A stretch of 42,089 nt of DNA from Candidatus Kapaibacterium sp. (lineage in GTDB: Bacteria; Bacteroidota; Ignavibacteria; Kapaibacteriales; Kapaibacteriaceae), in assembly GCA_030833725.1 (NCBI GenBank), contig JAURGP010000015.1, positions 1-42,089 of the forward strand, in the 5' to 3' direction. Below, piece after piece: positions 11,532-25,209 of the stretch (position 1 is its first letter; every line of letters begins with the position of its first letter). The notes beneath the pieces were generated by a model, which saw only the letters and a program-made list of their open reading frames with translations, searched no databases and was not told the DNA's origin. The position numbers and the translations under genes are program-made.

Positions 11532-11993
11532 ATGATCAATGCTCGACGCATCTCTCTCCTACTTCTACTCGGCAGCCTAACGACACTCGCAGGCTGCTCC
11601 TACAACTACCTTGCCAAGCCTCGCCCCATGGTACTGCACTGCCCCGTTGAGCGCAGTGAGTACATGCGCACGGCCGCAAACATCTTTGAACGAAACGGCT
11701 ACTCCGTTACAGAGCAGGATCAACAACTGGGAATCCTGATGGTACAGGACTCCATCACCGACGTAGCCTGGCGATACGAGTCGCTGGTTCGCACGTGGAA
11801 GATCCAGCATCGTGTGGACTCCGTTATCGTAGAGGTGTGGAGCGTGTCCACGCGGAAGGATGGCAGCGATGTCAAGCAGACGTGGGATAAACGCTGGTCG
11901 GACGAGATCGTCAAGGAATGGATGCGTCCGGTACTTACGTCACTTGAATCTGCCTGTGGCCTTGGTAGTCCCCTTCGACCATCGGGACGATAA
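11532..11993 (+). CDS. Small predicted lipoprotein of unknown function
   Basis: This 153-aa protein has a lipoprotein signal peptide: positive start (MINARR), hydrophobic core and lipobox 'TLAGC' (Cys at about residue 22). The mature part is a compact mixed alpha/beta region beginning 'SYNYLAKPRPMVLHCPVERSEY', without a motif I recognise. The residue after the lipid-anchored Cys is Ser, which does not suggest inner-membrane retention by the E. coli rule. It is monocistronic between the divergent kynU and the convergent AtuA-like gene, whose stop is 4 bp away. Function unknown. Confidence 0.75.
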   Translation: MINARRISLLLLLGSLTTLAGCSYNYLAKPRPMVLHCPVERSEYMRTAANIFERNGYSVTEQDQQLGILMVQDSITDVAWRYESLVRTWKIQHRVDSVIVEVWSVSTRKDGSDVKQTWDKRWSDEIVKEWMRPVLTSLESACGLGSPLRPSGR

Positions 11994-14023: not shown

Positions 14024-14632
14024 ATGGCAACGTTAACCCTCCTGCGTCACGGGCAGTCCCAGTGGAATCTTGAAAATCGCTTTACCGGCTGGGTGGACGT
14101 CGACCTATCTCCATTGGGAGAAGAGGAAGCCCGGATCGCGGGAGAAAAACTCCGAGACGTGCCCGTGGACGTGGTGTTTACGTCCGTCCTGAAGCGATCC
14201 ATCCGCACGGCAGACCTTGCCTTGGAAGCCGCTGGAAAACTGGAGCTACCAACGCATCGCAGTCAGGCACTCAATGAGCGCCATTATGGCGACCTGCAGG
14301 GACTCAATAAGGCCGAAACTGCTGCCGTCCACGGCGATGAGCAAGTACGACTCTGGCGGCGCTCCTACGATATCGCCCCGCCGAACGGCGAGTCGCTCAA
14401 GGATACGCGGGACCGCGTAGAGCCGTACTACCGAGAACAGATCGCTCCATTGCTTCGCGCCGGCGTAAACGTGTTAGTCGTGGCGCACGGCAACTCACTG
14501 CGGTCGCTCATCATGCTGATTCAACACCTCACCCCAGATCAGATTCTGGCCACCGAGGTTGCCACGGGCATTCCCATTGTTTATGAACTTGACCAGGATC
14601 TTCACGTTGTTCGCTCCTCAACTCTCGGCTAG
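14024..14632 (+). CDS. gpmA: 2,3-bisphosphoglycerate-dependent phosphoglycerate mutase
   Basis: This glycolytic enzyme interconverts 3- and 2-phosphoglycerate through a phosphohistidine (202 aa, the short form without the C-terminal tail of the 250-aa E. coli enzyme). The phospho-acceptor motif is 'LLRHGQSQWN' (His9), then 'FTGWVDVDLS', 'ALNERHYGDLQGLNK' (general acid Glu near 86), 'PPNGESLKDT' and 'VVAHGNSLRS' (second catalytic His near 157). The ATG at 14024 is 6 bp after the epimerase stop. Its last 50 bp overlap the next gene's likely start. Confidence 0.94.
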   Translation: MATLTLLRHGQSQWNLENRFTGWVDVDLSPLGEEEARIAGEKLRDVPVDVVFTSVLKRSIRTADLALEAAGKLELPTHRSQALNERHYGDLQGLNKAETAAVHGDEQVRLWRRSYDIAPPNGESLKDTRDRVEPYYREQIAPLLRAGVNVLVVAHGNSLRSLIMLIQHLTPDQILATEVATGIPIVYELDQDLHVVRSSTLG

Positions 14633-17600
14633 ACTCACCTGCACCATCACCTTCTGCCTTGCGATTCTAGCACCCGCGCTGCCGGCACAGAACGCACCAG
14701 ACGATGCCGTCATCACGGCGCTTCGCACCGAGGTGGCGCGTTCCATGCAGGGGCTTTCCCACCGGACCCCAGCCCCCTACATGATCAGCTACGGGGTTAC
14801 CGAGACGTCGACGACGCTGATTGTTGCCTCGTTTGGCAATCTGTTGACGAGCAGCACCACAACACAACGTGTGCTGGACGTTGACCTGCGCGTTGGCGAC
14901 TACACACTCGACAATACCCGGTCGATCCGCGGTGTTGCCTTTGAGCTTGGTCGAGGTACGCGAGGCGTGCAGCTCCCCCTGGGTAATGATGTTTCAGCCC
15001 TGCGCACAGCCGTGTGGCGTGCCACCGATCAGGCCTACCGGTCGGCTGCCGAACGGTATGAAAAGGTACTGACGAACCTGAAGGTCAAGGTGCGCGAAGA
15101 AGACTCGTCAGCAGACCTGTCGCGCGAGGTACCGTCCACGTTCATCCAGCCACCGGTTGCCGTGGCCTTTGATACCGTTCTGTGGCGCCGGCGCGTAGTG
15201 GAGCTCTCCTCGATCTTCAGCGGCTACCCCGAGATCTATACGGGCAGGGTGTCGTTTCAGTCGGACGTGGTTACGAAGACCATCATTACAAGCGAGGGCA
15301 CAACTGTTCGACAATACGAGCCGATCATCAAGCTGTTTGTCTACGTCAAAACAAAGGCCGATGACGGAATGAGTCTGCCGGTGTATGAGAGCTACTCCGC
15401 TTACACGGCCGACCGCCTTCCCTCCATGGAGCAGCTGCGAACCGATGCCAATCGGCTGCTGGATATATGCAGGAAACTGCGCACGGCTCCACTCATGGAA
15501 ACCTACTCTGGACCGGCCATTCTCTCTGGCCGATCGGCAGGAGTGTTCTTCCACGAGATTTTCGGCCACCGCGTAGAAGGGCATCGTCAGAAAGATGCCA
15601 ACTCCAGCCAGACCTTCAAAAACTTTGTCGGTCAGCGCATTCTCCCACCCTTCATCGACGTGGTCTTCGACCCTACGATCCGCTCTCTGGAGGGTATCGA
15701 TGTGGTGGGCTCGTACCAGTACGATGATGAAGGCATGCTGGCGCAGCGCGTTCAAGCTGTTGACAAGGGCATCTTTCAGAACTTCTTAATGTCGCGCTCC
15801 CCGATCGAAAACTTTCCATCCAGTAACGGCCACGGCCGACGTCAAGCCGGCAACAAGGCGGTTTCGCGGCAGTCAAACCTCTTGGTGATTGCGCAGGAGT
15901 CCGTGCCGGTGGAGGATCTTCGCTCGGCACTTCGTGATGAGTGTCAGCGCCAAGGCAAGGAGTTCGGCCTGTACTTCGAGGATATTCAAGGGGGCTTTAC
16001 GTTCACGGGACGAACGGTGCCCAATGCCTTCAACGTCCAGCCACTGATCGTCTACAAGGTGTTCGCCGATGGGCGCCCGGACGAGCTCGTCCGGGGTGTG
16101 GATCTGATTGGCACGCCCCTTACCACCTTCACCAACATCACGTTGGCTGGCAACGACCTGGGAATCTTCAATGGCGTATGTGGTGCTGAGTCCGGCGGTG
16201 TTCCGGTGAGTGCATCATCTCCGTCGCTGTTGGTGTCGCAGATCGAAGTGCAGAAGAAGCAAAAATCACAGGCAAAGCCGCCAATCCTTGCCGATCCGAC
16301 ATCGGTGGCTGGATCCTCACCCGCTCCATCGGCCTCTTACACCACCGGCATGATTCAGGCGATGCAGGATGAGATTGCACGGTCCATGCAGGAGCTGCGT
16401 ATCGATGATTTGCCAGCACCGTACGTGATTGAGTACACGATCACGGAGCGCGACCGGATTGGCGTTCACGCCACACTAGGATCGATCGAGGACATCGACA
16501 CGACGTCCATGACAACCCTCACCGTGCGGGTGCGTGTCGGTGATCCGTCCTTCGACAACACGAACTTCTTTGACGTATCCTTAGGCTTCTTTGGATCCAG
16601 CGACGACGAGGAGTCGTTCCGAAACCGCATGATTCCGCGCGATCTGTCCTATGCCGATCTGCGACGCGAACTCTGGCTAGCCACCGACGCCTGTTACAAA
16701 CAAGCCGTTGAAATCTACGCCAAGAAAACAGCTAGTCTCAAGAACCGTACACGGTCCGATACGACGTGGGACTTCACGCTGCTACCTCCGGATACGTTGA
16801 CCGATACGTCCGGAGTCTCGAGGCCAACTGATCGCGAGTCGGTTGCTACGATGGCAAAGGACCTGAGTGCAGCCATCAGCGCAGAGTTCCGCAACTACCC
16901 AGCGATCCATGCATCGCGCGTTGGGATGGAGTACGTGCCAGAGCGAACCATCTACGTGAACTCCGAGGGGCGCGTGATGGTGAAGTCCGAAGTTTTTACC
17001 GGAGTGGAGATCGTGGCTACCACACAGGCTTCTGATGGCCAGCCGATTTCCGATGCCTGGGCAGCCTACAGTGCCAATCCATCTGACCTACCATCGATCG
17101 ACAGCCTACAACAGATTGTGCGCAACCTGTGCTCCTCCATCACCGCTCAACAGCAGGCCGAGAAGATCGAACCGTACTCCGGTCCCGTGCTGCTGGAGGG
17201 ACAAGCTGCTGCGCAGTTCTTTGCGCAGGAGTTTGCCCCGATGCTCGTAGCGCAGCGCAAGCCCTTGTCGGAAGGGGGCTTCTCCACCGATGAACGCTCG
17301 ATGGCTTTTCAGAATAAGATCGGTGCCCGGGTGCTGCCGGAGTTTCTCTCGGTGCATGCTCGGCCATCGCTCGCCTCATGGAACAATAGTCCCGTTGCAG
17401 GCACCACCACCCTGGACGACGAGGGGATGCCGGCACAGGATGTAACCCTCGTTGAGGACGGCTACCTCCGTAGCCTCCTTTCCAGCCGTGTGCCAACACG
17501 CCGCGTGAAACAATCGAACGGCCATCAGCGCGGCGGAGCTGCCATGCTGAGTGTTCTCAGCGTATCGGCATCGGACACCACGCATCAGCTGTCGCAGGCT

Positions 17601-18047
17601 GACCTACGAGCCGAATTGCTCGAGTTGGTGGCACGACGCGAGCTTCCCTACGGTGTTGTCATACGACGCATCTTGGACCGCAACCTTCTTGCTACCGGAG
17701 TGTATCCCCTGCTTGCAGGAAGTGCTACCATTCGGCTTCAGCCTGGGGTGGTCCTGATTCTCGATGCTGTGCGTCTCTACCCTGATGGCCATGAGGAGCC
17801 AATCCGTGGTGCCGAACTTGCGGGGTTGTCGGCCTACACGTTTAAGGACATCGTCCACACAGGGACGGCCGCGTACGTCCACAACTACCTCGCTCCTTCC
17901 GTGGTGCCGGCGTTTATCACTGGAGGCTCGCAGTACGTCATGAGTACCATCATCACACCAGATGTGCTTCTCGATGATGCCGAGGTGCGACAGCCCGAAG
18001 GCGACCTGCCCACACTGCCAGTGTTGGCACATCCGATGGCGCCCTAG
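14583..18047 (+). CDS. Secreted double TldD/PmbA-family protein: active half plus zinc-ligand-less half
   Basis: This 1154-aa protein contains two tandem TldD/PmbA modules. A signal peptide (hydrophobic core 'ITFCLAILAPALPAQ') predicts export. Module 1 (about residues 40-560) has 'SAGVFFHEIFGHRVEGHRQKD' in shortened form HEIFGH (HExxxH zinc site, about residues 324-329) and the Cys ligand region 'FNGVCGAESGG'. Module 2 (about 590-1154) aligns throughout ('ARSMQEL', 'DLPAPYVIEY', 'SGPVLLEGQAAAQFF', 'KQSNGH') but reads AQEFAP where HEIFGH should be, and the Cys region is also lost. Known TldD/TldE are separate chains, only TldD binding metal. Start 14583 overlaps gpmA by 50 bp; an in-frame TTG near 14607 is possible. 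Confidence 0.85.
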   Translation: MNLTRIFTLFAPQLSARLTCTITFCLAILAPALPAQNAPDDAVITALRTEVARSMQGLSHRTPAPYMISYGVTETSTTLIVASFGNLLTSSTTTQRVLDVDLRVGDYTLDNTRSIRGVAFELGRGTRGVQLPLGNDVSALRTAVWRATDQAYRSAAERYEKVLTNLKVKVREEDSSADLSREVPSTFIQPPVAVAFDTVLWRRRVVELSSIFSGYPEIYTGRVSFQSDVVTKTIITSEGTTVRQYEPIIKLFVYVKTKADDGMSLPVYESYSAYTADRLPSMEQLRTDANRLLDICRKLRTAPLMETYSGPAILSGRSAGVFFHEIFGHRVEGHRQKDANSSQTFKNFVGQRILPPFIDVVFDPTIRSLEGIDVVGSYQYDDEGMLAQRVQAVDKGIFQNFLMSRSPIENFPSSNGHGRRQAGNKAVSRQSNLLVIAQESVPVEDLRSALRDECQRQGKEFGLYFEDIQGGFTFTGRTVPNAFNVQPLIVYKVFADGRPDELVRGVDLIGTPLTTFTNITLAGNDLGIFNGVCGAESGGVPVSASSPSLLVSQIEVQKKQKSQAKPPILADPTSVAGSSPAPSASYTTGMIQAMQDEIARSMQELRIDDLPAPYVIEYTITERDRIGVHATLGSIEDIDTTSMTTLTVRVRVGDPSFDNTNFFDVSLGFFGSSDDEESFRNRMIPRDLSYADLRRELWLATDACYKQAVEIYAKKTASLKNRTRSDTTWDFTLLPPDTLTDTSGVSRPTDRESVATMAKDLSAAISAEFRNYPAIHASRVGMEYVPERTIYVNSEGRVMVKSEVFTGVEIVATTQASDGQPISDAWAAYSANPSDLPSIDSLQQIVRNLCSSITAQQQAEKIEPYSGPVLLEGQAAAQFFAQEFAPMLVAQRKPLSEGGFSTDERSMAFQNKIGARVLPEFLSVHARPSLASWNNSPVAGTTTLDDEGMPAQDVTLVEDGYLRSLLSSRVPTRRVKQSNGHQRGGAAMLSVLSVSASDTTHQLSQADLRAELLELVARRELPYGVVIRRILDRNLLATGVYPLLAGSATIRLQPGVVLILDAVRLYPDGHEEPIRGAELAGLSAYTFKDIVHTGTAAYVHNYLAPSVVPAFITGGSQYVMSTIITPDVLLDDAEVRQPEGDLPTLPVLAHPMAP

Positions 18048-20047
18048 AACGCATCTGCACGCCACCGTATGCCGAGGTACACCATCCTCGGACTGGTGGG
18101 CCCCCATGCCATGGAAGCGTCGAAGTATCGGCTGAACGGGTCATTCGCAGCAATCACTGGATCCTGCTGAACAAAACCGTTCAGGTTTTCACCTCCCACG
18201 TAGACGTCGAATCCCGGAAACCGACGGGTGATCTGCGCCGTCGCTCGCCAGTAGCCGGGAAAGGTCTCCATCATGGAGTACTCCATGGGATTGCCCAACG
18301 TTGTGGGCATCCGTCCAGCTCCGTTGTAGGATACCGTACCGTCCACCTGCCACTCAGCCCCCTGCGTTTCCCAAGCAAGGGTGAGCAACACACGATCCCT
18401 CGAGAGCATGGGTGCTACTTGAAGCGTACCGTTGTACGGTGATTGCACGTCAAGCCATCGGTAGGCGATGCCAACATCCAGACGTGGGACGGGTGAGGCT
18501 TGCACCTGGGCCATGATCGATGTTGAGTAGCTTCTACCGTCAAGGTTGGTCACCCACAGATGACGCACGGACCGATCGAAATCAACAACAACGCGATTAC
18601 TGAATTCCGTGTGGTACACCTCTGCATCAACTACGATGGGTCGGTCTGCAACGGAGAACGACGTGGTAAACGATGCGCCGTAGTTCCAGGCTTGCTCGGG
18701 TCGAAAGAGCGGATCCAGATGCAGCGTGCGGCCATTGATGAAGGCTGAAAGGTTTTCGGTGATCGCACTTGGTACTCTCCAGCCACTACCCACTGATGCT
18801 CGGATCGACGTGAGCGATCCAGCCTGCCATTTCACGTGCATGCGTGGTGTGAGTCGCGAACCGAACTGATTGTGCCAATCCGATCGCAGTCCAGCGACGA
18901 TGGTAAGGGGCTGCACAGGTGCCCAAGTCGCCTCGGCATACACACCGGGCACCGACTCCGTTCGGTTGAGTTGGGTTCCGCTCGTCGTATCTGTGCGAAG
19001 TGTTTCCCCCACCTGATCCCATCGATAACTCACGCCGGTGTTGAGTTGAAAGCCCTCCCAGAGGGTCGCAGCGAAGACGGCCTTGGCCTGCAGCGTGCGT
19101 TCACGGGCGTCTAAGCTGCGCTCACCGAACTGCGAGGACATGTTGTGGATCGCTCCGGAAACAATCAACGCCACCGAGCTCTGATCGAGATCGTCGATCA
19201 CGTCCAGCAAACCGTACTTCGCATAGGATTCCAGTCGCTCGATATCGGTAGCGATGCTATAACGTTGATCGCGAACGATAGCCGTGCTTGTGTTACCCGA
19301 CTCATAGGCGTCCAGCACACCGTGGATAAAGAACTGCCACTCCGTTTCATCATCGTTGTAGTACCACTTGTTCACGGCATTGAGTTGACGAAACAGGGGC
19401 GTGTCGAGAAAGCCGTCGCCATTGCCATCGATCTCACGCTCCAGAATTCGGCCATGCAGCATGGTGATCGTCGACAGTGCGTCCGATACGTGTTGAGCTC
19501 CGTACAGGTTCAACTCGGCTCTACCAAAGGTGTTGCCGTAGGCGTTCACGTAGAACGGCTCCTCGGTTGCCAGTGGATCCAGCATGCAGATGTTAATCTG
19601 TCCGGTCATTCCCTCGTAGCCATTGGTGACCGTAGCTGCCCCTTTGGCGATGCTGATGTTATCCATGAACGGCCCTGGGATGTGATCCAGGCCAAACGGA
19701 ATCTCCAGCGAGAGCATCAGTGGAACAGCGTCCGTCAGCAGTTGGGTGTACTGCCCACCAAGACCCAGTAAACGGATGGTGCGAGCGCCACTCACGGCAT
19801 CGGTAAACGAGACCTCCACCGACGGACTTCGTTCAAAGGATTCGGCCAGCGAACAGCATGCAGCTCGGGAGAGCTCCTTTCGGGTGACCACTTCAGTGCG
19901 CAGGGGTGCGGAACTGATGGTAGGAGCATCTGCCTCTACGCGAACTTCCTTGGTGGTCACGGAATCCGCAGGGTACTCTGGCTGTGCAACCATGACGACT
20001 GCCATGGACGCCAGCATCCACGCAGAGTGAAAACATCGAGAAAACAT
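18044..20047 (-). CDS. TonB-dependent outer-membrane receptor (AACC-plug type, possibly metal-related)
   Basis: This 667-aa protein has a signal peptide, plug and 22-strand-type barrel. The start ATG 20047 gives a normal signal ('MFSRCFHSAWMLASMAVVMVAQ'); the ATG at 20092 adds 15 unlikely residues. The mature N-terminus has no CarboxypepD_reg domain. The plug carries 'SRAACCSLAESFERSPSVEV' (Cys pair near residue 62) and 'ARTIRLLGLGGQYTQLLTDAVP', marks of a Bacteroidetes receptor subfamily often found beside HYC_CC_PP proteins and heavy-metal genes. The barrel ends 'YLGIRWRADAF' with terminal Phe. It is the second gene after a HYC_CC_PP-like protein (53-bp gap) and overlaps the convergent TldD gene by 4 bp. 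The substrate is unknown; a metal chelate is a guess. Confidence 0.88.
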   Translation of the reverse strand: MFSRCFHSAWMLASMAVVMVAQPEYPADSVTTKEVRVEADAPTISSAPLRTEVVTRKELSRAACCSLAESFERSPSVEVSFTDAVSGARTIRLLGLGGQYTQLLTDAVPLMLSLEIPFGLDHIPGPFMDNISIAKGAATVTNGYEGMTGQINICMLDPLATEEPFYVNAYGNTFGRAELNLYGAQHVSDALSTITMLHGRILEREIDGNGDGFLDTPLFRQLNAVNKWYYNDDETEWQFFIHGVLDAYESGNTSTAIVRDQRYSIATDIERLESYAKYGLLDVIDDLDQSSVALIVSGAIHNMSSQFGERSLDARERTLQAKAVFAATLWEGFQLNTGVSYRWDQVGETLRTDTTSGTQLNRTESVPGVYAEATWAPVQPLTIVAGLRSDWHNQFGSRLTPRMHVKWQAGSLTSIRASVGSGWRVPSAITENLSAFINGRTLHLDPLFRPEQAWNYGASFTTSFSVADRPIVVDAEVYHTEFSNRVVVDFDRSVRHLWVTNLDGRSYSTSIMAQVQASPVPRLDVGIAYRWLDVQSPYNGTLQVAPMLSRDRVLLTLAWETQGAEWQVDGTVSYNGAGRMPTTLGNPMEYSMMETFPGYWRATAQITRRFPGFDVYVGGENLNGFVQQDPVIAANDPFSRYFDASMAWGPTSPRMVYLGIRWRADAF

Positions 20048-20100
20048 GAGAGTCTCCGTGTGTGAGTTAATGAGTTCAACAGAAAAACACACCGGAGATT

Positions 20101-20487
20101 CTAGATCAGGAACACCGCCAACATTGGTTGTTCGGGGGGCTCAGGAGGATGAGCCTGCTCATACACGCGCAACCACTGCAACGAGTGGCGTTGCACGGCT
20201 AGGATAGACTGCAACGGAAGGATGTCAATGACGTCGTTGACGGGCGTTGCCAGGTGATGCGACTCCTGAGCAACGGACTGACCATCGACTTTATTAACGA
20301 CGACCTCTGTTTCGCAACAATCGCAATCGGACTCGCAGCAGGGATCCGACTCGACGGCCGCCGTAGCGGCAATAGGAACATCACAGCAATACGATACCAC
20401 GACCGGCAGGCCCGTAGTTGCCAGAGCAAACAGGACTGCAAGGAGGCTGGTCACGACGGATCTGAATGTGATGATCGACAGTAACAT
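20101..20487 (-). CDS. Small exported Cys-rich HYC_CC_PP-family-like protein
   Basis: This 128-aa protein has a signal-peptide-like hydrophobic N-terminus ('ITFRSVVTSLLAVLFALATTGLP', start ATG 20487). The mature part has a 'SYCC' motif (about residue 33), a cysteine cluster 'DPCCESDCDCCETE' (about 49-62) and a Pro-rich tail 'HPPEPPEQP'. This order (YC, CC, PP) fits the Bacteroidetes HYC_CC_PP family, which is typically encoded next to a TonB receptor, as here. The six cysteines in 14 residues suggest metal binding, which is inference. The longer start at 20520 would run through the -7 element at 20493-20500. Confidence 0.72.
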   Translation of the reverse strand: MLLSIITFRSVVTSLLAVLFALATTGLPVVVSYCCDVPIAATAAVESDPCCESDCDCCETEVVVNKVDGQSVAQESHHLATPVNDVIDILPLQSILAVQRHSLQWLRVYEQAHPPEPPEQPMLAVFLI

Positions 20488-20492
20488 TTGCA

Positions 20493-20500
20493 CAAAGATA
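20493..20500 (-). promoter_or_regulatory. -7 element 5 bp before the HYC_CC_PP-like gene
   Basis: TATCTTTG on the minus strand is an exact TAnnTTTG match. It ends 5 bp before the ATG at 20487, predicting a leaderless or near-leaderless transcript for this gene and the TonB receptor. Confidence 0.5.
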
Positions 20501-20607
20501 TCATCATCTCGTGTCGTCACTAACGATGCATATCAAGTTTTTTTTCCACTCCCTTGCGAAACACGTCGAAACGTCGTTATTTCCCCCATCACCTGTGGAG
20601 GTTCCTG

Positions 20608-20841
20608 ATGGAAGAGATCAAAACCTATTCCAGTAAGGATGTTACGGTCGTTTGGCGACCGGCTCTTTGTGAACACTCGACACACTGTTTTCGCAGTTTA
20701 CCCGAAGTGTTCAACGTGCTCGTCAACCCGTGGATTCAACCCGAAAAGGCTGCCGCAGAGCGCGTGATCGACGTTGTTCGGCGCTGCCCCTCCGGCGCAT
20801 TAACAATACAGGGCACCACAGAAGATCGAACGTCGGAATAA
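20608..20841 (+). CDS. YjdI-type (4Fe-4S) mono-cluster protein
   Basis: This 77-aa protein (start ATG 20608) matches the Fer4_19/YjdI family of single-cluster proteins. Visible signature: 'VVWRPALCEHSTHCFRSLP' (Cys21, His23, His26, Cys27), 'VFNVLVNPWI' (about 34-43) and a third Cys60 in 'RRCPSGAL'. Only three cysteines are present, as in the family, so one histidine or another residue may complete the cluster. An in-frame ATG at 20554 would add 18 basic residues unlike the family. The 120-bp gap upstream holds a T-run (20538-20546) and no consensus -7 element. Physiological role unknown. Confidence 0.85.
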   Translation: MEEIKTYSSKDVTVVWRPALCEHSTHCFRSLPEVFNVLVNPWIQPEKAAAERVIDVVRRCPSGALTIQGTTEDRTSE

Positions 20842-20850
20842 CCCACTTCG

Positions 20851-20858
20851 TATCTTTG
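20851..20858 (+). promoter_or_regulatory. -7 element 6 bp before the FnIII-like gene
   Basis: TATCTTTG is an exact TAnnTTTG match ending 6 bp before the ATG at 20865. If used, the mRNA begins at or very near the start codon. Confidence 0.5.
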
Positions 20859-20864
20859 CAGCAT

Positions 20865-21287
20865 ATGAGAAGTGTACTACTCATCTCTGTTGTTCTCGCT
20901 GCCGTTGCCACGGCATTTGCTGTGGAAGCGACGGTAGACTATCTCCGTGCCAGGTCTACTGGTTCAGAGGTTGTTATCGAGTGGCGCTCGGGAGACGAGT
21001 CGAATGTGCGACACTACATCGTTGAGAGAGCCGGCGAAGATCAGGTGTTCCGCACGGTGACGACCGTTCGTGCAGAGGGTTCGAACAAGACCTACACCTA
21101 CAAGGACACCGAGGCGTTTGGCAAGGATGAGGGTGCCGACCGTCAACTCGCTGGAACGTACTTCACCTATCGCCTGAACATCGTGATGTCCGACAACTCC
21201 TCTACTTACTCCACCACTGCCGGTGTATCGCACAACGTAAGTACGGTACGCAGAACGTGGGGTATGATCAAGGAATTGTTCCGCTAA
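20865..21287 (+). CDS. Small exported protein with a fibronectin-III-like fold
   Basis: This 140-aa protein has a cleavable signal ('MRSVLLISVVLAAVATAFA'). The mature part looks like one FnIII domain: 'GSEVVIEWRSGDESNVRHYIVERAGED' (tryptophan strand followed by Y-x-V-E-R), 'TYTYKDTEA', 'TYFTYRLNIV'. It ends 'VRRTWGMIKELFR' in an amphipathic basic tail, without a T9SS sorting domain. The start ATG 20865 is set by the signal peptide and by the -7 element just upstream; a frame opening at 20730 runs through the preceding gene. It leads a three-gene run with the metalloprotease (4-bp gap). Function unknown. Confidence 0.75.
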   Translation: MRSVLLISVVLAAVATAFAVEATVDYLRARSTGSEVVIEWRSGDESNVRHYIVERAGEDQVFRTVTTVRAEGSNKTYTYKDTEAFGKDEGADRQLAGTYFTYRLNIVMSDNSSTYSTTAGVSHNVSTVRRTWGMIKELFR

Positions 21288-21291
21288 TTCC

Positions 21292-22926
21292 GTGACTGCC
21301 CGCCTTGCCGTCCTGAGCGGTAGCTTTCTCCTCTGGGCCACTCTACATCTCCCTGCCTCCGATGCCACACACTCCGGTAGATGCGGCACGCTCGCTGTCT
21401 CCGAAGTTCAGCGTGTACAGGAGCTGGAAGCAGGCATCCAGTCCGATCGTCCGCGCCCAGTCCTCCCATTGTACCTCGACGCACCGAGCGGATGGTTTCG
21501 CGTCCACTACGCGATCACCGGCCCCGATGCCGTCCCCGATGCTGATGACGATGGCGACGGCATTCCTGACTACGTGCAGGAGGCCATCATAGCCCTTGAT
21601 CGCTCGTGGAACATCCAGCAGCAGTATCAGGCGCCACCACAGCCGCTCTCCGACGGTATGGCAGGGGGCTCTCCAGCACTGGACATCTACCTTCGAGACC
21701 TCTCCATGGCTGGCCCGGCAGGAGCTGGCTACTACGGGATCACCATTCCGGATAGTCTTGTGAGTAGCGGCGTTGGGCGCTGGCCACGCTTTACGACGTG
21801 GCTGGAAGTCGACAACGATTTTGCTCCGGGTGACACCAACGTGTACGGAGACACGGTGTTTGGTACCACTGGAGTTGCCGGCTTGCGCATCACGTGTGCC
21901 CACGAACTCCATCACGTAGCTCAGCTCGCACAGTTCGGCACTGCAAATGTTCAGCTCATGCTGTACGAGCAGATGGCCACCTACATGGAACTCATCTGCT
22001 ATCCAGAGTATGACGATTGGCGGATCTACGCGACGAAGTTTTTCCGCGACCCAGCGGCGTACGCTCTGGGAGACGCATCAGCCTTCGCTGGCTATGTATG
22101 GGGGTGGTTCCCCCGTGTGTATGGCGCCAGCGATGTTCAGGTATATGCAGGCGTCTTCTCAGCCATGCAGCAGGGCGAGCGTCCGTTTACGGCCATGGTA
22201 CAGGCTACCGCGGCCATTGGGCATCCACTAGATAGCACGTTCACACGCTTGCTACCACTCCTGTTCTACACAGGTGATCGAGCCGGCGACACAACTACAA
22301 CGGCTGGACCTCCCACCCCAGAGCTTTTGCCAACCCTCTCATGGCATCGCGCTGAAATCGCACAGGCTCCTGCTGTCCTTTCGTCGGGAGAGCTACGACC
22401 GTTCGAAGTTCGGGCGTTGCAGTTTACCATCCCCACAACGGATGGTGCCGAACCGGTATCGACCTCGGTGCTACTGAGTTGGACAAATCTTGAAGCATAC
22501 CAATCAACAGAGTTTCCATCCCGTCGCGGGTATCAGTTGGTGTTGCAGCGGTCTCCTGATGAACGATTCCAGCCCATTGCAGGTACGTCATGGGGCGTTC
22601 GTATTGAGCCTGCTGATGTTACCATGTGGATCGATAATGCCGCAACGGTGCGTCCGGCACAGCCATATCCCCTACCCGTAGCTCTGCAGACCGACCCAAC
22701 CGTGTACGTTCCCGTACCAGGTGCGCTACCCGGCGATCCAGTGGTGGTACATTTGCGAACGGCGGCCATGGGCATGATATACGAGCATCGGGGTACGGTG
22801 CAGTACGACCGAGATCGCATCGTGGCTCAGGTACCGCTTCCGTCCGTGCTTGTGCCTGGAGTGTACCTGTTGACCGCCGACTGCAACGGTACAACCGTCC
22901 TTCACAAAATTGTTGTGCAGCGATGA
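21292..22926 (+). CDS. Secreted metalloprotease, MXAN_6640-like, with T9SS-like C-terminal tail
   Basis: This exported 544-aa protein starts at GTG 21292, 4 bp after the previous stop, with a signal peptide ending near 'LPASDA'. The acidic run 'DADDDGDGIPDYVQEA' (about residues 83-98) resembles a Ca2+-binding TSP3-type loop and is typical of the MXAN_6640 family of putative metalloproteases. The zinc motif 'CAHELHHVAQ' (HExxH, about 204-213) is followed by 'MATYMELICYPEYDD', whose Glu (about 232) could be the third ligand. The C-terminus 'VPGVYLLTADCNGTTVLHKIVVQ' resembles the last strands of a T9SS type A sorting domain. Its stop overlaps the ABC ATPase start (ATGA). Confidence 0.8.
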   Translation: MTARLAVLSGSFLLWATLHLPASDATHSGRCGTLAVSEVQRVQELEAGIQSDRPRPVLPLYLDAPSGWFRVHYAITGPDAVPDADDDGDGIPDYVQEAIIALDRSWNIQQQYQAPPQPLSDGMAGGSPALDIYLRDLSMAGPAGAGYYGITIPDSLVSSGVGRWPRFTTWLEVDNDFAPGDTNVYGDTVFGTTGVAGLRITCAHELHHVAQLAQFGTANVQLMLYEQMATYMELICYPEYDDWRIYATKFFRDPAAYALGDASAFAGYVWGWFPRVYGASDVQVYAGVFSAMQQGERPFTAMVQATAAIGHPLDSTFTRLLPLLFYTGDRAGDTTTTAGPPTPELLPTLSWHRAEIAQAPAVLSSGELRPFEVRALQFTIPTTDGAEPVSTSVLLSWTNLEAYQSTEFPSRRGYQLVLQRSPDERFQPIAGTSWGVRIEPADVTMWIDNAATVRPAQPYPLPVALQTDPTVYVPVPGALPGDPVVVHLRTAAMGMIYEHRGTVQYDRDRIVAQVPLPSVLVPGVYLLTADCNGTTVLHKIVVQR

Positions 22927-24428: not shown

Positions 24429-24452
24429 GCGGATCGTGTGCTCACAATCCGC
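24429..24452 (-). terminator. Candidate hairpin at the 3' end of the nuoM-nuoN-outer-membrane run
   Basis: GCGGAT (24429-24434) and ATCCGC (24447-24452) form a perfect 6-bp stem, with TGTG/CACA able to extend it inside. The stop codon of the outer-membrane gene (24442) lies in the loop side. No clear T-tract follows. Confidence 0.3.
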
Positions 24453-25209
24453 GGACGATGCGAAGTCCCGCTGAGGCCTGAAGATACGTCCATGGATGCG
24501 TAGCGCTCACACTCCAGAGCGGCATCTGTACGCTCACCATGGGCGAGATCACGAATCCCAGCTGCAACGGAAGATCATACTGAAACAGTAACGACGGTTC
24601 CAGTAGCACGGAAGAGGAGGAATACAACACCTGTTGGTCGATCGCTATCGACGAACTTCCATCGGCAAACCGGTAGTCGTCCGGACTCACCACGCGCTCG
24701 GTGAGGGTGTACTCGGCCGCAACCCGCACCATGGCGCGGAGGTCCAGCCCAATCGAAGCCATCGACCCGAACAATCGCTGGCGCACCCCTCCTTGCAGAT
24801 GCAGGTACCGGAAACTCGTCTCTAAATCATATGCCGTTTCAACGGTGCCGTACTCTACCGTCGGGAATCCCTGTGTAGCCGCGGTGAACACTCCAGATGT
24901 CTGACTGTATCCCAACCCCGCCGTCACGGCCGTCTGTGGGGCAACCCAGCGCTCGGCAATCACGGCAAACCGCAACGGTGTGCCCGTTCCGTCGGCGAAG
25001 GTGCAACAGGTGATGAGATCCTCCACATACGGCAGGGTTGTGCGATGGAGAGCCGAGCCGATAGCCCCTTCCACCCCAACGAAGGTGCGCGGCATCACCC
25101 GCGGAGACCTGGGTGACCACTCCCAGTGGTAGCGCTGTGCCCATAGGTTGTTTCCACCAACCAGCATCGCCAGCACGGCAACCATCCAGAAGTTCCTTCG
25201 CAGGGTCAT
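24442..25209 (-). CDS. Predicted outer-membrane beta-barrel protein, function unknown
   Basis: This 255-aa protein has a signal peptide ('MVAVLAMLVGGNNLWAQ'). The mature part alternates Gly/aromatic-rich amphipathic strands ('TFVGVEGAIGSAL', 'TAVTAGLGYSQTSG', 'FRYLHLQGGVRQRLFGSMASIGLDL', 'FVISPMVSVQMPLW'), as in small outer-membrane barrels of Bacteroidetes. One 'LITCCTF' Cys pair is present. It starts in an ATGA overlap with the large T9SS protein upstream, so the two are co-translated and may act together on the surface. No family assignment is possible by eye. Confidence 0.65.
   Translation of the reverse strand: MTLRRNFWMVAVLAMLVGGNNLWAQRYHWEWSPRSPRVMPRTFVGVEGAIGSALHRTTLPYVEDLITCCTFADGTGTPLRFAVIAERWVAPQTAVTAGLGYSQTSGVFTAATQGFPTVEYGTVETAYDLETSFRYLHLQGGVRQRLFGSMASIGLDLRAMVRVAAEYTLTERVVSPDDYRFADGSSSIAIDQQVLYSSSSVLLEPSLLFQYDLPLQLGFVISPMVSVQMPLWSVSATHPWTYLQASAGLRIVRGL

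Follow-up and report, generated by a model that had tools for sequence, protein, structure and literature searches.

A single-chain TldD-type protein with a predicted export signal and a metal-ligand-less twin module in Candidatus Kapaibacterium

TldD/TldE is known as an intracellular heterodimer. PMC5810440 describes the Escherichia coli pair as a hollow heterodimer in which the metal is bound by TldD only (His262, His267 and Cys454), activity requires both TldD and TldE, and unfolded peptides are thought to enter N-terminus first. Here we describe a gene of Candidatus Kapaibacterium sp. that lies in a stretch of 42,089 nucleotides (contig JAURGP010000015.1, positions 1 to 42,089; hereafter the window) and encodes two modules of this type in one open frame of 1154 amino acids. 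Its first half (module 1) keeps the predicted metal site, its second half (module 2) lacks the ligands, and the chain begins with a signal-like stretch. The explanation that we favour, with a probability of about three in four, is a single-chain exported metalloprotease with a built-in inactive twin, which would have arisen from an adjacent gene pair.

The first-pass annotation had read this frame as one chain with two TldD/TldE-like halves that align along their length, and our comparison bears this out. Pairwise alignment of the two modules over their whole length gave 28.5% identity in 576 columns (E = 1e-54, 181 bits), against a maximum of 26.6 bits in 100 shuffles of module 2, and both modules match the PmbA/TldD C-terminal domain PF19289 (90.5 bits for module 1 and 55.1 bits for module 2; cut-off 22), for which the gene's own genome has these two matches and no others. 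The central domain PF19290 is borderline: against a cut-off of 20.9, the whole chain scores 22.8 bits and module 1 alone 18.2, and module 2 is not listed. The whole chain scores below the cut-offs of both TldD equivalog models (NF008006, 63.5 bits, cut-off 513; NF040952, 118.3 bits, cut-off 635) and is therefore a relative of TldD, not an orthologue; it is also below the cut-off of the PmbA equivalog NF008268 (438 bits), to which the whole chain scores 32.5 bits, module 2 by itself 21.5 and module 1 13. In the alignment with E. coli TldD, H262, E263, H267 and C454 correspond to H324, E325, H329 and C533 of module 1, and the same columns of module 2 hold A881, Q882, P886 and A1104, which are no metal ligands. 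The claim of HEIFGH and a Cys in the first half, with AQEFAP and no Cys in the second, was thus correct in every part.

The AlphaFold2 model of the full chain has a mean pLDDT (predicted local distance difference test score) of 87.2 and a pTM (predicted template modelling score) of 0.84, the latter being a confidence estimate. It was built from an alignment (A9) of 12 full-length rows and 33 module-2 rows, so that module 1 was modelled from a shallow alignment; alignments A4 and A5, in which module-2 singles lay on the module-1 half, and A8, with the reverse fault, had been excluded by identity to the first row. For module 1 the match to E. coli TldD (5nj5_A) has Z 33.1 over 440 residues and a root-mean-square deviation (rmsd) of 3.3; module 2, which reached pLDDT 92.1 and pTM 0.92 when modelled alone, matches the same chain at Z 31.1 over 441 residues (rmsd 3.6; VIA-align). 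No solved fold outside the TldD/TldE family stood above Z 5.3 in either module's match list. The whole-chain pTM of 0.84 suggests that the two halves are held in a fixed arrangement; their relative position is presumably determined in the model, because undetermined halves would not be expected to give such a value.

Signal-likeness was scored as the best 11-residue Kyte-Doolittle mean. The first 42 residues of the window protein reach 2.42. Over their first 40 residues, the 32 canonical TldD/TldE controls score at most 1.67, so that none reaches 2.0. Residues 1-38 of the window protein have a pLDDT below 50 in the full-chain model. From this N-terminus, which had been called a signal peptide, we infer that the fused protein is exported (periplasmic or secreted) through one Sec-type signal. 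In relatives with separate genes we scored the 35 residues before each module, leaving out fused rows, start-truncated rows and rows without a module start; 76 of 77 module-1 and 65 of 68 module-2 sequences reach at least 2.0, and all 145 at least 1.88. For module 1 of locus L138, a scan requiring a start codon found none within the allowed range. The junctions of the fused genes hold no signal-like stretch (0.75 in the window's gene and 0.17 in the fused relative L070). Because the separate-gene relatives have signal-like N-termini on both halves, export is not peculiar to the fusion; of the earlier claim of a fused exported protease, the signal-like N-terminus stands and export as a trait of the fusion does not.

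The alternative that survives best is descent of the whole TldD/TldE pair, in which module 1 would be an exported TldD, module 2 an exported TldE, and the zinc site would have been lost only once. We consider this rather unlikely. It would account for the same asymmetry on the same fold, Foldseek places PmbA/TldE chains slightly ahead for module 2 (1vl4, 4.5e-26; 5njb_B, 5.3e-26; TldD 5nj5_A, 2.2e-24), and the PmbA equivalog mentioned above fits module 2 better than module 1. VIA-align, however, gives TldD as the best match of module 2, with Z 24.0-27.6 for the PmbA/TldE-type chains, although TldD is the longer chain, and neither half matches PF01523. The trees also argue against it. A tree of 56 sequences places modules 1 and 2 together in a single group, separate from TldD and TldE (100/100). 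Quartet tests were run with 18 module-1, 18 module-2, 13 TldD and 13 TldE sequences after six near-duplicate canonical rows had been dropped; the module sequences came from 17 of the 80 relative loci and the window's gene, and the canonical rows from one Kapabacteria family and from E. coli, Deinococcus, Sphingomonas, Cetobacterium and Acetoanaerobium, which is a thin sample. The best grouping joins the two modules on one side and TldD with TldE on the other. The groupings module 1 + TldD / module 2 + TldE and module 1 + TldE / module 2 + TldD were rejected by approximately unbiased (AU) tests, with p 0.026 and 0.020 on 221 C-terminal columns under LG+G4, 0.006 and 0.003 for the same columns and trees under LG+C20+F+G4, and 4e-6 or less when all 444 columns were used. 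We thus rejected TldE orthology of module 2 on three sets of AU tests, the weakest being the first, with Foldseek leaning slightly the other way. Since module 2 groups with its own catalytic partner, it is probably not a TldE orthologue, and on this grouping its zinc site was lost independently of TldE. The long branches, and the possibility of ancient gene conversion between tandem genes, weaken the tree for an independent twin. Of the parallel to TldD/TldE that had been drawn at first, one half with a metal site and one without ligands on the same fold can be kept, but the identification of the second half with TldE probably cannot.

It is also conceivable, but distinctly improbable, that the protein has kept the TldD fold for a structural or binding role and is not an active peptidase outside the cell. 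The clamp residues speak for this, as E. coli Lys456 and Asp272 are replaced in module 1 by Ala535 and His334, respectively. According to PMC5810440, Lys456 and Asp272 of E. coli TldD form a salt bridge that tethers the clamp; the bridge is not kept here, and substrate handling may therefore differ from that in E. coli. Against it, the HExxxH motif, in the form HE[IV][FL]GH, is present in all 108 module-1 rows (28 from the window and genomes plus 80 loci, with repeats of one genome retained), the Cys is present in 107 and the other row is gapped, and two other residues that stabilise E. coli TldD, Arg362 and Glu270, are present in all 18 module-1 rows examined. A divergent relative of module 1 from another family of the class (L065; G128:C67:7400-10800) reads HETPGH at the zinc motif in a frame of 362 amino acids.

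The two modules are mostly encoded by separate genes. Protein matches were found in 48 of the 296 genomes of the phylum, and reading the open frames of loci from those 48 gave one chain in the window's genome and in G086 only; the other pairs read are two genes, some of them neighbours, others on separate contigs or, as in G283, distant from each other on the same contig. All 23 genomes of the window's family (f1) match, and the module profiles match 122 of the 123 genomes of the order and are thus near-universal there, each profile also picking up the other module and G345 matching weakly. Among the matches listed for these 123 genomes, one chain by open-frame length occurs in the window's genome (G000), G086 and G304 only. 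Within the genus, the fused form is found in 3 of 6 genomes, and the modules are encoded separately in the sister genomes G305, G059 and G232; G304 and G305 are identical in the relevant stretches to loci L070 and L066, respectively, and L070 has 88% DNA identity to the G086 locus. The 80 relative loci comprise 68 with separate neighbouring genes on the same strand, one fused (L070) and 11 with module 1 only, some of these at contig ends. Separate-gene versions and further instances of the same two-module chain (G086 and G304) therefore both exist among the relatives. Six further candidate fusions with frames above 1000 amino acids (G212, G164, G196, G287, G109 and G146) were rejected, as all six read as two in-phase frames separated by 1 to 19 stops, and the TAA inside the G086 match is that gene's own final stop. 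Records with the titles Acidobacteriota, Aminicenantes, Gemmatimonadota and Gammaproteobacteria also contain homologues. Module 1 is matched by 35 of 72,556 plasmid records, one match covering at least 80% of the module, and the annotated matches are called TldD, TldD/PmbA family or 'TldD-related', save one hypothetical protein. In addition to the main pair, a second, more divergent adjacent exported pair was seen at G321:C56:4913-8454, G367:C32:2400-5917 and G368:C26:21414-24931.

The fused frame could in principle be an artefact of assembly or annotation that joins two separate genes. The window's genome is a draft (1.98 Mb, 92 contigs), the fused frame of this genome is known from that one assembly, which weighs against our reading, and the three sister genomes have two genes. 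Such an error is nevertheless very improbable, because the junction of 17 codons contains no signal-like stretch, so that a single-base error could not hide a second signal, and because G086 and G304 are also fused, with a different linker.

The asymmetry of the two halves is old and under constraint. There are 95 module-2 rows, of which 4 are gapped at the site, and His occurs at both ligand columns in none of the 91 readable ones. When the fused genes of G086 and L070 are compared, the ratio of nonsynonymous to synonymous substitution rates (dN/dS) comes to 0.045 in module 1 and 0.094 in module 2; the comparison of the window's gene with L066, in which synonymous sites are nearly saturated, gives 0.11 and 0.14. 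Recent decay, in which module 2 would just have lost its zinc site and the asymmetry would be meaningless, is hardly credible and was rejected: module 2 does show the lower conservation (mean column identity 52%, against 63% in module 1), but both His are gone in all 91 readable rows, from records of several phyla, its dN/dS over four comparisons is 0.06-0.14, indicating purifying selection, and its profile matches 122 of the 123 genomes of the order. The asymmetric pair of the first-pass annotation therefore holds up.

The fusion probably happened twice, with the second signal lost each time. In a concatenated gene tree of 26 pairs, the window's gene groups with the split pair L066 (Shimodaira-Hasegawa-like approximate likelihood ratio test, SH-aLRT, 99.8; bootstrap 100), and forcing the three fused genes into a clade of their own is rejected (log-likelihood difference 45.2, AU p 0.0009). 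It is because the tree rejects this grouping that we think of two events. The two fused lineages differ in linker sequence. The position of G086 and L070 in the concatenated tree is weakly supported (47.6/77), which weighs against this, and in a FastTree of module 1 only, the window's gene with L066 is sister to G086 with L070. One ancestral fusion with later re-splitting in L066 is less likely, because L066 would then need a new signal peptide. Between the two separate genes of L066 (L066:2045-2200), directly ahead of the second signal peptide, lies a short tandem repeat with units like GAGCAGCGAGTAGC; a repeat of this kind could promote deletions by which the genes become fused. Taken together, we lean towards a history in which an exported TldD branch, present in several phyla, gained a dead partner by its own duplication, and this pair was welded twice in one Kapabacteria genus into a self-contained extracytoplasmic protease for unfolded peptides.

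Three further points count against the favoured explanation of a single-chain exported protease. Signal-likeness is the hydropathy mean only, taken over stretches that differ slightly between modules and controls. The N-terminal domain PF01523 has no match in the protein at E up to 1 and none in its own genome; the region of this domain is nevertheless covered by the fold match in both modules. Finally, 10 of the 12 full-length rows behind the full-chain model were built by reading through stops between neighbouring genes.

In the proposed mechanism, one Sec-type signal would be removed and the chain would then lie outside the cytoplasm, periplasmic or secreted. Module 1 would bind zinc or iron through His324, His329 and Cys533, with Glu325 as the catalytic base. 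Module 2, with the same fold and no metal site, would pack on module 1 to form a closed shell that admits only unfolded peptide ends to the active site, in line with the E. coli TldD/TldE 'pencil sharpener' model, and the biological role may be the clearing of unfolded peptides outside the cytoplasm. The gene would have originated from an adjacent pair that lost a stop codon and the second signal peptide, probably twice, and the inactive twin would stem from a duplication inside the exported family, separate from that giving TldE. The analysis itself establishes the sequence, its conservation, the predicted fold, the distribution of the family and the history of the gene; from these we infer that the protein binds metal, how its halves pair, that it is exported and catalytic, and that it clears unfolded peptides. 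The simplest reading is the same division of labour as in E. coli, carried out in one exported chain.

A widespread relative with export signals would put the same closed-shell peptide shredder outside the cytoplasm, and the exported pair occurs in almost every genome of an order in which the canonical pair is missing from most genomes searched. Should the inactive partner have arisen apart from TldE, this would be a natural experiment on why the fold needs a dead twin, and an active subunit with an inactive twin would have evolved at least twice on the TldD fold. The one-chain form would fix a 1:1 stoichiometry, so that the roles of the halves could be separated by mutating either one.

The canonical TldD/TldE domain PF01523 was found in 27 of the 123 genomes of the order, 25 of them in family f4 (G342 partial), two with partial matches in f3 (G212 and G315) and none in f1. 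The f3 matches are probably spurious, because the open frame at the G212 match (L207) resembles a Clp-type ATPase. In f4 genomes such as G287 and G160 the exported pair and canonical TldD/TldE co-exist, and the exported pair is therefore not simply a re-located TldD/TldE. Several canonical TldD proteins of f4 (L196, L198, L200 = G287:C26:3400-7000, L203, L205 and L206) have a twin-arginine-like start, RRDFLK, RRDFIK or RRSFIK, and the adjoining TldE proteins have no signal-like start (scores 0.1-1.2); L197, L199, L201, L202 and L204 are without the twin-arginine-like motif. This pattern could reflect export of a pre-folded TldD/TldE pair by the twin-arginine (Tat) route, with TldE as a hitchhiker; a literature search on Tat-exported TldD/TldE found no paper.

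The coordinates of the features are given in Table 1. Read from the ATG at 14583, the gene shares its first 50 bases with the end of the upstream gene, and translation could also begin at a later TTG codon (residue 3 or 9), so that the exact start codon is uncertain. Neighbouring genes were compared in 81 loci (80 relatives and the window). Other upstream clusters stand at the position of panD (24/81) and of the IspD-like and glyoxalase-like genes (29/81), and Wzz-like, O-antigen-ligase-like and PBP2-like genes lie downstream in 10-11 of the 81 loci (e.g. L102:9375-13592), the Wzz and ligase matches being weak and partly below the Pfam cut-offs. These neighbours look like general conserved gene order and give no clear functional lead. 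Rfam and tRNA scans of the window found nothing.

Table 1. Features of the fused gene and its surroundings (window coordinates)
Feature	Coordinates	Strand	Basis or remark
Whole gene: fused, predicted-exported TldD-type protein, 1154 aa	14583..18047	+	open frame from ATG
Signal-peptide-like N-terminus, residues 1 to about 36, hydrophobic stretch TCTITFCLAILAPALPA	14583..14690	+	hydrophobicity
Module 1, catalytic TldD-like half, residues about 40-572	14700..16298	+	PF19289 and NF040952 matches; fold match 5nj5_A
HEIFGH, residues 324-329, predicted zinc-binding/catalytic motif	15552..15569	+	alignment to E. coli TldD
Cys533, predicted third metal ligand	16179..16181	+	aligned to E. coli TldD C454
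Linker, residues 573-589 (17 residues)	16299..16349	+	split relatives have a stop codon, intergenic DNA and second signal peptide here
Module 2, zinc-ligand-less twin, residues 590-1154	16350..18044	+	PF19289 match; own fold model
AQEFAP, residues 881-886, degenerate site at HExxxH position	17223..17240	+	alignment of halves
Upstream histidine-phosphatase/gpmA-like gene	14024..14632	+	cluster in 24/81 loci
TonB-dependent receptor gene	18044-20092	-	convergent; end overlaps protease gene by four bases
Open frame, no Pfam match at E 0.001	11532-11993	+	
Open frame, no Pfam match at E 0.001	20101-20520	-	
Open frame, no Pfam match at E 0.001	20730-21287	+	
Open frame, no Pfam match at E 0.001	21292-22926	+	
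Open frame, no Pfam match at E 0.001	24442-25209	-	

Among described proteins, the PmbA/TldE structures 3qtd, 3tv9, 1vl4, 6j6a and 1vpb have the same fold as each half (Z 24-29) but are single-module and not fused. The canonical pairs of f4 (L196-L206), an HEA.GH TldD of about 470-520 amino acids beside a TldE of about 450, belong to a separate lineage. In titles and abstract openings we found no description of an exported or fused TldD/TldE, subscription journals lying mostly outside the search, and in the main text of PMC5810440 the terms fused, fusion, phylogen-, periplasm- and signal peptide do not occur. A close relative is the exported pair encoded by separate genes in Kapabacteria, Ignavibacteria, Acidobacteriota, Aminicenantes and others (L066-L145 except L070), for which our search found no name. 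It has the same two modules, its module 1 being 47-74% identical to that of the window, and each half has its own signal-like N-terminus; it is encoded by two genes, adjacent or sometimes unlinked, whereas the window's gene encodes one chain with one signal. E. coli TldD/TldE (5nj5; PMC5810440) resembles the window protein in the fold of both halves and in having HExxxH and a remote Cys in one partner only. It differs in consisting of two chains of 481 and 450 amino acids without a signal-like start, from a family with PF01523, whereas the window protein is a single chain that begins with a signal-like stretch, its modules have about 530-565 amino acids and do not match PF01523, and, in contrast to E. 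coli TldE, its inactive half groups with its own catalytic twin.

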